This document shows, in pieces, positions 14,829 to 51,517 of a DNA stretch of 64,000 bases (within the stretch, counting starts at the first letter, position 1; each line of letters begins with the position of its first letter). The DNA is taken from contig QYPX01000081.1 of the NCBI GenBank assembly GCA_007280205.1, positions 1 through 64,000 on the forward strand, given 5' to 3'. The position numbers were made by a program, and so were the translations under genes. Source of the DNA: Comamonadaceae bacterium. GTDB lineage: Bacteria; Pseudomonadota; Gammaproteobacteria; Burkholderiales; Burkholderiaceae_C. The notes beneath the pieces are model-generated. The model was not told the origin of the DNA. It saw only the letters and a program-made list of their open reading frames with translations, and made no database searches.

Positions 14829-14963
14829 TGGATCCCGGGTCAAGCCCGGGATGACAAACTGTAGGCCGGGATGACAAACTGTAGGCCCGGGATGACAAAC
14901 TACTGGCCCTGGATGACAAACTACTGGCCCTGGGGGACAAACTGCTGGCCCGGGATAACAATT
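14829..14963. repeat. Palindrome GGATCCCGGGTCAAGCCCGGGATGAC followed by iterated (C)CGGGATGACAAACT.. tail
   Basis: GATGAC-like cores at 14851, 14871, 14892, 14913, 14934(degenerate), 14955(degenerate); spacing 20,21,21,21,21. Confidence 0.9.
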
Positions 14964-40530: not shown

Positions 40531-40648
40531 GTCATTGCGTCCCCGGATCAGGTCCGGGGTTTCAGCACCCGCAATCCAGTACGTGCGTGGCACTGGATCC
40601 CGGATCAAGTCCGGGATGACAGCCAAGCGAGTCCGGGATGACGAATCC
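40531..40648. repeat. Bipartite palindromic repeat element with two GGGATGAC cores
   Basis: GTCATTGCGTCCCCGGATCAGGTCCGGGG ... TGGATCCCGGATCAAGTCCGGGATGAC, second GGGATGAC 22 bp on. Confidence 0.9.
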
Positions 40649-48364: not shown

Positions 48365-51300
48365 GTGCACTTGCCTGTTCCTTATCGCGTTGAGGCCGAC
48401 ATCGTTTCGGCTCAGCTGTTGCGCCTGGCGGGCGCGCTGGATTGGGCCGCGGTGGCCCGTGCTGCCACACCCTGGGTGCAGGCAGTGCGCAGCAACCCGC
48501 CGCCGTTCTGGGCGCTCGAGAGCCTGCTGCAGGAGTACCCGATTTCCAGCGCCGAAGGGCTGGCCCTGATGCGTCTGGCCGAAGCGCTGCTGCGCGTGCC
48601 CGACGCCGAGACCGCGATTGCGTTGACCGCCGATCAGCTGGGGCGTGCCGACTTTGACGGCGCTGGTGACAAGACGCTGGCACGACTGTCGAGTACCGCC
48701 ATTGCCATGAGCAAGAAATTTCTGCCCGACAGCGAAGCGCCGAGCGGCATGTTTGCCAAGCTCGGTGCACGTTCGGTGGTGGCTGCCACCCTGCGGGCCG
48801 TGCAGTTGCTGGGCCGCCAGTTTGTGCTCGGGCAGACCATCAACGAGGCGATGGCTGAAGCCGCATCGGCCAGGCGCAAGATGAAGAACTTGCGCTACAG
48901 CTATGACATGCTGGGCGAAGGCGCGCGCACCGATGTCGATGCGCTGGCGTATTTGGCCAGCTACCAGCACGCCATTAAGGCGATCGCCGCCAACAGTGAT
49001 AAGGCCGGTGCCTGCGAACCCAACGACGGCATTTCGATCAAGCTTAGCGCCTTGCATCCGCGCTTTGAGGAGGCGCAGAAAGAGCGTGTGCTGGCCGAAC
49101 TGGTGCCACGTGTCTGGAGTCTGTGCGAGCAGGCGGCACGCGCCAACATCAACCTGACGATGGACTCCGAAGAGGTGGACCGGCTGGAACTTTCGCTGGA
49201 TGTATTCGAGGCGCTCGTCAGTCAGGTGGCGCAGCATTTCCCGCAGTGGGGCGGCTTTGGCCTGGCGCTGCAGACCTACCAGACACGTTCGCTGGAACTG
49301 GTCGAGCACGTGATCGCAGTGGCGCGGCGCTACCAGGTGCGCCTGATGTGTCGGCTGGTCAAGGGCGCTTACTGGGACGCCGAGATCAAACGTGCGCAGG
49401 AACTGGGCCTGCCCGCCTATCCGGTGTTCACCCACAAGCAGCATACCGATGTGTCTTACCTGGCCTGCGCCCGCACCCTGCTTGATGCGCCGGATGCGGT
49501 CTACCCGCAATTTGCCACGCACAACGCCGGCACCATTGCTGCCATCCTGCAGATGGCGAGCATGGCCCCCACGCTTGCCGCTTCGCCTGCTGCGCTGCCC
49601 CCCGAGGGGGCCTTCGCGCCTTGGGGCGGCCCGGCGGCGCTCAAACGTGGCCCCCAATTCGAGTTGCAGCGCCTGCATGGCATGGCTGAAGGCGTTTACC
49701 GCGAGGTGCTGAAGAACCCCTTGGTCGCCTGCCGCATTTATGCTCCGGTCGGTGCGCACAAGGACCTGCTGGCCTACCTGGTGCGCCGCCTGCTGGAAAA
49801 CGGCGCCAATTCGTCCTTTGTGCACCAGCTGGCAGATGAGAGAGTCGCTCTGCCCGACCTGCTGATCTCGCCGCTGCGCCTGGAGCCACAGGCGTCGCTG
49901 CCGCTGCCGCCTGAACTGTTCGGTGCTGCGCGCAAGAACAGCGCTGGCCTGGATTTGACGGTCGAGGCCATGCGGGAACCACTGTTCAGCGCGTACCGGG
50001 AAGTGACGGTTCCGCTGGTGCCGCTGTTCGATCTCCGCCTGCTCGGTGCTGCGATGGAAAAAAGCGGTGCGAGTTTCAGGAAGTGGAGCAAGACCGATCC
50101 TGCCCTGCGCTGTGCGGCTCTGCGTCGTGCAGCGGACGCGCTGGAACAACAACTGCCGAAATTTTGCGCGTTGCTGGTGAAGGAAGCTTTCAAGACCTGG
50201 GGCGATGCGGTCAGCGAAGTGCGCGAAGCTGTGGATTTCCTGCGTTACTACGCCGTTGAGGCTGATCGCATCATGGCGCCGATCGCCATGCCCGGTCCCA
50301 CCGGAGAATCCAACGAACTGCGCCTCATCGCGCGCGGACCCTGGGTTTGCATCAGCCCGTGGAACTTTCCACTGGCCATTTTCATGGGCCAGGTGGCAGC
50401 AGCATTGGCCACCGGCAACACGGTGCTGGCCAAACCGGCCGAGCAGACGCCGGGTGTGGCGCTGGAAGCGGTCAAGCTGCTGCACGCCGCGGGTGTACCT
50501 GAGGCTGCGCTGCAACTGTTGCACGGCCCCGGCGAAACCGTGGGCGCTGCGCTGGTGGCGGCGCCGGGTGTGGCGGGCGTCGTGTTTACCGGTTCCACTT
50601 CGGTTGCCAAAATCATTCATCGGGCGCTGGCCGCCAAGGACGGACCCATCGTTCCCCTGATTGCGGAGACCGGTGGCATCAACGCCATGCTGGTGGACAG
50701 CACGGCGCTGCCCGAGCAGGTCAGCGACGCCGTCATGCAGTCGGCCTTTCGCAGCGCCGGCCAGCGCTGCTCGGCGCTGCGCCTGCTGTGCGTGCACGCC
50801 GAGATTGCCGACCATGTGATCGAAATGATTCAGGGGGCGGCGAAGGAACTGGTGATCGGTGACCCGGCTGATCTGGCGACGGACTTGGGGCCGGTCATAG
50901 ACAAGGAGGCTTTTGACAATATTCAGAAGCACCTTCAAAGATTGCGCGCCACAGCCAGGTGTTGTCATGCCGTCCCCGGATCAGGTCCGGGGTTACAACA
51001 TCCGGCATCCATGCAATTGAGCAAACCCTGGATCCCGGCTCAAGGCCGGGATGACAAATATCGGGACCGGGATGACCAATATCGGGACCGGGATGACCAA
51101 TATCGGGGCCGGGATGGCATGTATTTCGTCTCGCCGCAAGCTTTCGAACTCAACTCCATCGCCGAGTTGCAGCAGGAAATCTTCGGGCCGGTGCTGCACA
51201 TCGTGCGCTGGAGTGGCGACCCGCTGGCCTTGATCGACCAGATCAACGCCTTGGGCTTCGGTCTGACACTGGGCATCCAGACCCGCATCGACAGCCGGGC

Positions 51301-51517
51301 ACAAGCGATGGCGCGACGCGCCCACATCGGCAATGTTTACATCAACCGCAACCAGATTGGCGCGGTCGTTGGCGTTCAGCCCTTTGGTGGCGAGGGCCTC
51401 TCGGGCACCGGCCCGAAAGCCGGTGGCCCGCATTACCTGTACCGCTTTTGCGCGGAGCAGACCATCACCGTCAACACCACCGCAGCAGGTGGCAATGCCG
51501 CCCTGCTGGCGGGCTGA
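48365..51517 (+). CDS. putA: Bifunctional proline dehydrogenase / L-glutamate gamma-semialdehyde dehydrogenase PutA with two apparent in-frame insertions
   Basis: 1050 aa; PRODH (RLVKGAYWDAEIKRAQ) and P5CDH (SPWNFPLAIFMGQVAAALATGN, GQRCSALR, QPFGGEGLSGTGPKAGGPHYLYRF) domains; no N-terminal RHH domain. Confidence 0.95.
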   Translation: MHLPVPYRVEADIVSAQLLRLAGALDWAAVARAATPWVQAVRSNPPPFWALESLLQEYPISSAEGLALMRLAEALLRVPDAETAIALTADQLGRADFDGAGDKTLARLSSTAIAMSKKFLPDSEAPSGMFAKLGARSVVAATLRAVQLLGRQFVLGQTINEAMAEAASARRKMKNLRYSYDMLGEGARTDVDALAYLASYQHAIKAIAANSDKAGACEPNDGISIKLSALHPRFEEAQKERVLAELVPRVWSLCEQAARANINLTMDSEEVDRLELSLDVFEALVSQVAQHFPQWGGFGLALQTYQTRSLELVEHVIAVARRYQVRLMCRLVKGAYWDAEIKRAQELGLPAYPVFTHKQHTDVSYLACARTLLDAPDAVYPQFATHNAGTIAAILQMASMAPTLAASPAALPPEGAFAPWGGPAALKRGPQFELQRLHGMAEGVYREVLKNPLVACRIYAPVGAHKDLLAYLVRRLLENGANSSFVHQLADERVALPDLLISPLRLEPQASLPLPPELFGAARKNSAGLDLTVEAMREPLFSAYREVTVPLVPLFDLRLLGAAMEKSGASFRKWSKTDPALRCAALRRAADALEQQLPKFCALLVKEAFKTWGDAVSEVREAVDFLRYYAVEADRIMAPIAMPGPTGESNELRLIARGPWVCISPWNFPLAIFMGQVAAALATGNTVLAKPAEQTPGVALEAVKLLHAAGVPEAALQLLHGPGETVGAALVAAPGVAGVVFTGSTSVAKIIHRALAAKDGPIVPLIAETGGINAMLVDSTALPEQVSDAVMQSAFRSAGQRCSALRLLCVHAEIADHVIEMIQGAAKELVIGDPADLATDLGPVIDKEAFDNIQKHLQRLRATARCCHAVPGSGPGLQHPASMQLSKPWIPAQGRDDKYRDRDDQYRDRDDQYRGRDGMYFVSPQAFELNSIAELQQEIFGPVLHIVRWSGDPLALIDQINALGFGLTLGIQTRIDSRAQAMARRAHIGNVYINRNQIGAVVGVQPFGGEGLSGTGPKAGGPHYLYRFCAEQTITVNTTAAGGNAALLAG
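49556..49658. repeat. Intragenic CTGCCCCCCGAGGGGGCC..CCTTGGGGCGGCCCGGCGGCGC repeat-like insertion in putA
   Basis: Encodes SMAPTLAASPAALPPEGAFAPWGGPAALKRGPQ, not expected in PutA between AAILQMA and FELQRLHGM; GCCCCC-CGAG-GGGGCC palindrome. Confidence 0.65.
50963..51120. repeat. Intragenic bipartite palindromic element plus 21-bp tandem tail in putA
   Basis: GTCATGCCGTCCCCGGATCAGGTCCGGGG ... TGGATCCCGGCTCAAGGCCGGGATGAC, then 21-bp units at 51047-51067, 51068-51088, 51089-51109 and a partial unit. Confidence 0.93.

Follow-up and report, generated by a model that had tools for sequence, protein, structure and literature searches.

An in-frame CGTC-tagged REP heterodimer in PutA of a Comamonadaceae bacterium, and palindromic repeats in other enzyme loops

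Closest described systems and the class of the putA element

The CGTC-tagged REPs were defined by Di Nocera, De Gregorio & Rocco (2013; PMC3733652) as a superfamily that includes RPE-4 and RPE-6 of Rickettsia. That study also reported intragenic CGTC-REP units from many species, described REPs at about the same recB site in Xanthomonas campestris and X. oryzae, proposed that REP inserts are possibly neutral because they are located in loops, and put forward roles for REPs in mRNA stability, translation pausing or supercoiling (PMC3733652). In-frame palindromes outside Rickettsia have thus been in print since 2013 and are not new in themselves. Here we describe such an element in the putA gene of a Comamonadaceae bacterium, on a window of 64,000 nucleotides (the whole stretch of DNA that was analysed). 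The host genome is a metagenome-assembled draft, 84% complete, in 276 contigs. A first-pass annotation had likened the insert to the Rickettsia RPEs, and the likeness is apt, since RPE-4 and RPE-6 were placed in the same CGTC-REP superfamily (PMC3733652).

On the criteria tested, the insert belongs to the CGTC-tagged REP superfamily and is closest to the CGTC-2 layout (8-bp stem, 5-nt loop). Its half-units carry an unpaired end tag, TGTC or CGTC in most cases (CGTC, TGTC or CCTC in the superfamily); the stem (8 bp here, 8–9 bp in the superfamily) opens with AT, the loop is 5 nt (4–5 nt in the superfamily) and a CCA tail is present, the AT opening and the tail not being independent criteria because both were built into the search pattern. 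The units are scattered through the genome, for the most part as inverted pairs that are often heterodimers, and some lie in coding regions (PutA, LipB, YgiQ, FdhA and the C-terminus of GlpB). The CGTC/TGTC tag, AT-opening stem, 5-nt loop, CCA tail, inverted heterodimers, conserved spacer, want of a transposase gene and occasional in-frame units are all common to the published CGTC-REPs (PMC3733652); peculiar here are the betaproteobacterial (Comamonadaceae) host, the nested hairpins, the 21-nt arrays with locus-specific spacers and the several palindrome families per loop. No transposase gene was found beside the repeats: the 84% complete genome has two Y1_Tnp genes, and no CGTC hairpin occurs in the 3.2–3.3 kb loci around them. 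A GTAG-REP/RAYT system was rejected, as the tag is TGTC/CGTC and the Y1_Tnp genes are without a flanking repeat. No Rfam family matches the insert.

With the Rickettsia RPEs the element shares in-frame palindromes in conserved protein genes, a likeness in behaviour rather than a claim of RPE membership; the open ORF and the low flanking dN/dS indicate that the interrupted gene is probably functional. It differs in having a free-living host, mostly intergenic copies and no one conserved peptide. Like the Xanthomonas recB REPs (PMC3733652), different repeats occupy about the same site of a gene, but in the present case this extends to several enzymes and, in a single genus, to three or more unrelated families. 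ERIC, RU and other MITE insertions with ORFs (PMC10969869) are likewise small and non-autonomous and can undergo translation within genes; their terminal inverted repeats, however, are longer and IS-derived, and none of that kind was recognised here. In the open-access literature we found no earlier report of a Rhodoferax/Comamonadaceae case or of 21-bp REP arrays. As far as that literature shows, what is new is the host group, the use of the same enzyme loops by multiple families, and the 21-nt terminal arrays; RPE-like protein decoration is documented in a free-living freshwater betaproteobacterium.

Anatomy, history and constraint of the putA insert

The host ORF was identified as full-length PutA by both Pfam and NCBIfam; the insert divides the ALDH match in two. 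The first-pass annotation had described a bipartite inverted element lying in frame in putA with the ORF left open, a match to an intergenic copy in the window, and three additional 21-bp units; the analysis confirmed all of this (Table 1). The encoded peptide, CHAVPGSGPGLQHPASMQLSKPWIPAQGRDDKYRDRDDQYRDRDDQYRGRDG, lies within the P5CDH domain. It had been taken to start at PGSG, which is four residues too late, since the CHAV codons are already part of the left half. Tandem Repeats Finder reports the putA units with period 21, 3.4 copies and 96% match. Folded as single-stranded DNA, the putA dimer gives -22.8 kcal/mol (z = -3.4).

Table 1. Features of the putA locus, further repeat copies in the window, and other genes with repeat-encoded segments. 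Positions are in the window or, where a locus is named, in that locus (genome and contig in parentheses; G000 is the host genome).
Feature	Position	Strand	Description
putA, host gene of the insert	48365..51517	+	open ORF; bifunctional proline dehydrogenase / glutamate-semialdehyde dehydrogenase, 1050 aa
Whole in-frame insert	50963..51118	+	156 nt = 52 codons, residues 867-918, CHAVPGSG...YRGRDG; counts tag base T at 50963 (TGTC)
Left CGTC-REP half GTCATGCCG...CGGCATCCA	50964..51011	+	48-nt form with nested hairpin
Nested hairpin CCCCGGATCAGGTCCGGGG	50974..50992	+	missing from orthologue L033, whose left half is 21 nt shorter
Linker between halves	51012..51028	+	17 nt; 15 nt in most copies
Right CGTC-REP half TGGATCCCGGCTCAAGGCCGGGATGAC	51029..51055	+	27 nt; CCA tail, 8-bp stem, 5-nt loop, TGTC-type tag read on - strand
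Three 21-nt terminal tandem units	51056..51118	+	each = locus-specific 11-nt spacer + 10-nt copy of element end
Intergenic copy of putA dimer	40531..40620	+	48 + 15 + 27 nt
Third right-half copy in window	14829..14855	+	degenerate left side; terminal array
LipB (octanoyltransferase)	L198:2523-3362 (G000:C91)		in-frame repeat in loop; also in G042, G001
Formate dehydrogenase alpha (FdhA)	L195:1500-4724 (G000:C200)	-	repeat + about ten 7-residue units between 2Fe-2S and 4Fe-4S domains; also in G042
YgiQ-family radical SAM protein	L193:2432-5104 (G000:C34)	-	in-frame repeat dimers split N-terminal domain match; also in G042
GlpB	L196:2424-4076 (G000:C72)		C-terminal extension encoded by repeat, several 7-residue units (DDSSQVR)

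Orthologous putA inserts were found in three further species: L033 (the Erken lake bin, G042), L015/L034 (G018) and L007 (G001). These come from independent assemblies of different samples, and each insert carries its own substitutions. The left half has been lost in L007, the number of tandem units differs between species, and length shifts in 21-nt steps; the right-half peptide PWIPxQGRDD is kept across the inserts of at least four species. With the window, the insert is thus shared by four congeneric species; in the alignment of relatives the loop measures 59 aa in the window versus 16–22 aa in most other Comamonadaceae. An exact empty putA site was not found in a close repeat-free relative, and relatives lacking an insert have diverged too far in their flanks to give the clean, base-resolved empty site that the target-duplication test for MITEs uses.

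Comparison of the window with L033, L015 and L007 gave dN/dS values of 0.04–0.18 either side of the insert, and noisy values of 0.17–1.16 inside it, on 21–37 codons only. This shows flanks that appear to be under strong purifying selection and an insert whose constraint appears relaxed. No residue of the ALDH signature varies, and this includes the catalytic Cys and Glu; we infer that the enzyme with its insert is probably still active.

An AlphaFold2 model of PutA, built on a shallow alignment of 32 sequences, had a mean pLDDT of 73 and a poor C-terminus; its best structural matches were Bradyrhizobium PutA structures. The insert (model residues 323–374) fell mostly below a pLDDT of 50, with better modelled flanks, a helix on one side and a strand on the other. 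The model supports a predicted disordered insert in a surface loop between a helix and a beta strand of the P5CDH domain; given its moderate quality and poor C-terminus, it backs the disorder rather than proving it.

The dispersed family and its 21-nt terminal arrays

The right half occurs at three places in the window, versus 0.01 expected by chance. In a census of listed matches and fetched stretches rather than a full annotation, it was found at 106 places in the host genome with up to three mismatches, and at none in a reversed control; BLAST found 49 similar places there. A looser half-unit pattern matched 213 places in the host genome, 290 in G007 and 104 in G001, with none in 16 relatives from other genera and none for the reversed-pattern control. 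Genome-wide, left halves measure 27–28 or 47–51 nt (both 27- and 48-nt forms occur), right halves 27 nt, and the linker is 15 nt in 49 of 66 measured copies, many dimers being 69 or 90–93 nt long. Inverted pairs join unlike stems, i.e. they are heterodimers. The tag is TGTC in 117 and CGTC in 11 of 132 half-units, the 5-nt loop is mostly TCAAG, TCGAG or TCAGG, and pairing of the 8-bp stem is kept by compensatory changes at three pairs other than the AT opening among the half-units of the family. Some copies are only a few dozen bases away from the end of a contig (host contigs C105, C190 and C269, and others), suggesting that these elements break assemblies in this genus.

After 48 of 62 intact right halves in the host genome there is a tandem array of a spacer plus the 10-nt element end. 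Of the 48 array-bearing copies, which have 47 different spacers (e.g. L120, L137, L142, L143, L161 and L170), 39 show a 21-nt period; a second count found 21-nt spacing in 79 of 88 array intervals. Arrays also occur in G001 and in G042, where the period is 21 nt in 8 of 17 and 18 nt in 4 of 17. Samples of 19 half-units from G013 and three from the Ramlibacter genome G041 contained no 21-nt array; the terminal arrays are specific to this lineage, not superfamily-wide.

The first-pass annotation had stressed that 21 nt equals seven codons. Changes in unit number do keep the frame, but the emphasis on coding is misplaced: the period belongs to the repeat family itself, whatever site a copy occupies, and the seven-codon fit is a helpful coincidence rather than a coding adaptation. 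Nearly all of the host-genome arrays sit outside recognised genes, and production of the units by coding selection was rejected because non-genic copies have the same period. Nor is the repeat specially coding-ready; this too was rejected, since 0.375 of the frames of intergenic dimers lack a stop, as against 0.416 for dinucleotide shuffles, so that coding pre-adaptation is unnecessary.

Two turns of B-DNA span 21 nt. The constant period at dozens of loci with differing spacers points to a ruler in the multiplication of REP ends. Tentatively, a dedicated or physically constrained process may repeatedly copy the last 10 nt of the CGTC-REP 21 nt onward with a locus-specific spacer, its by-product being frame-neutral steps of seven residues that would turn loops into disordered linkers of tunable length; we regard this proposal as possible and somewhat doubtful.

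Enzyme loops as permissive sites

Four of the host-genome copies examined interrupt a recognised gene in frame, namely those for PutA, LipB, YgiQ and formate dehydrogenase alpha. Their orientation and reading frame vary with the host gene, so the encoded peptide is not one and the same. G018, G001 and G007 lack the FdhA insert, and G007 also lacks the one in YgiQ. Many long ORFs through other copies (L194, L205, L207) were rejected as antisense or spurious, having no Pfam match. In a further case, the apparent start of an OHCU decarboxylase/M20 peptidase fusion ORF (L201:3399, contig C68) is an ATG within the terminal ATGAC of the repeat.

The same loops hold unrelated palindromes in relatives. 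The PutA loop of L008 (G015) contains a different in-frame hairpin, GTCATTGCGAGCGCAGCGCGGCAATCCA, which is dispersed, with six copies in G015 and 20 in the host genome. That of the Ramlibacter locus L043 has a 27-nt half element, of which there are 19 such copies in its genome, and those of G010 and G024 contain a translated third family (AAAAATCAGCCTCTAGCC..., with 14 and 40 BLAST matches there, respectively); FdhA of G010 seems, by resemblance only, to carry this family too. A fourth, AATTGGGGTCAGA, is found in LipB and YgiQ loops of several relatives, at 11–20 places per genome and none in controls; palindromes of this type occupy the LipB loop of G018, G012 and G005. These comparisons show a few enzyme loops, in the host genome and its relatives, that appear to have been colonised repeatedly by several unrelated palindromes. 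Such reuse is expected of permissive sites and not of one domesticated peptide, and in effect maps, in vivo, where PutA, LipB and YgiQ are permissive.

Very probably, then, the insert descends from one insertion of a CGTC-REP heterodimer into a length-variable surface loop of the P5CDH domain, in an ancestor of at least four congeneric species, which was tolerated and later changed in 21-nt steps, with the same process at work in LipB, YgiQ and FdhA. A heterodimer with terminal 21-nt units would have entered the loop once, in the common ancestor. We assume that insertion is roughly random; copies that shifted the frame or struck structured regions would have been purged. The putA copy would have survived because its length keeps the frame, it offers a stop-free frame, and the loop tolerates a disordered excursion. 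The nested hairpin and terminal units would then have been gained and lost in 21-nt steps, leaving the gene open. The same process may have filled the LipB, YgiQ and formate dehydrogenase loops, and unrelated families may have done likewise in relatives.

That the insert is shared by four species, changes length in 21-nt steps, sits in a variable loop modelled as disordered and has purified flanks suggests that a selfish or neutral insertion has been tolerated and not domesticated. Domestication, which the first-pass annotation had proposed, would have the RD-rich peptide recruited as a tether, an interaction surface or a regulator of proline catabolism and kept by selection. Retention over at least four species and the conserved PWIPxQGRDD speak for recruitment, but the letters conserved are those that any repeat copy encodes, the lengths differ among species with half of the element deleted in L007, unrelated palindromes replace it in the same loop elsewhere, and the insert is predicted to be disordered with a higher, if noisy, dN/dS. 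The proposal is unsupported, and we consider it very unlikely.

A role at the DNA or RNA level, in which the hairpin in the putA message alters mRNA stability, translation pausing or local supercoiling, would draw on the strong folding, the compensatory changes in the stems and the REP roles already proposed (PMC3733652). However, L007 retains one hairpin, without the left half, and other relatives have none or other palindromes; the chance of such a role is just as slim. Disruption of P5CDH, with putA turning into a pseudogene or becoming monofunctional, might be read from 52 residues in a catalytic domain and a split ALDH match, but both domains are intact and purifying selection has persisted since the insertion in the species compared, which makes damage less probable still. 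An artefact of a repeat-rich, metagenome-assembled genome, to which the 276 contigs and the copies near contig ends might lend themselves, is scarcely credible against orthologous inserts with their own substitutions in independent assemblies.

In several enzymes the orthologues form a natural set, from empty through half to full and with differing unit numbers, so whether the inserts are neutral is directly testable. Elsewhere in PutA, and with no connection to the palindromic repeat seen, about 27 residues (at about 400–426) separate the PRODH core from the segment that follows and are additional relative to Bradyrhizobium PutA and several congeners.
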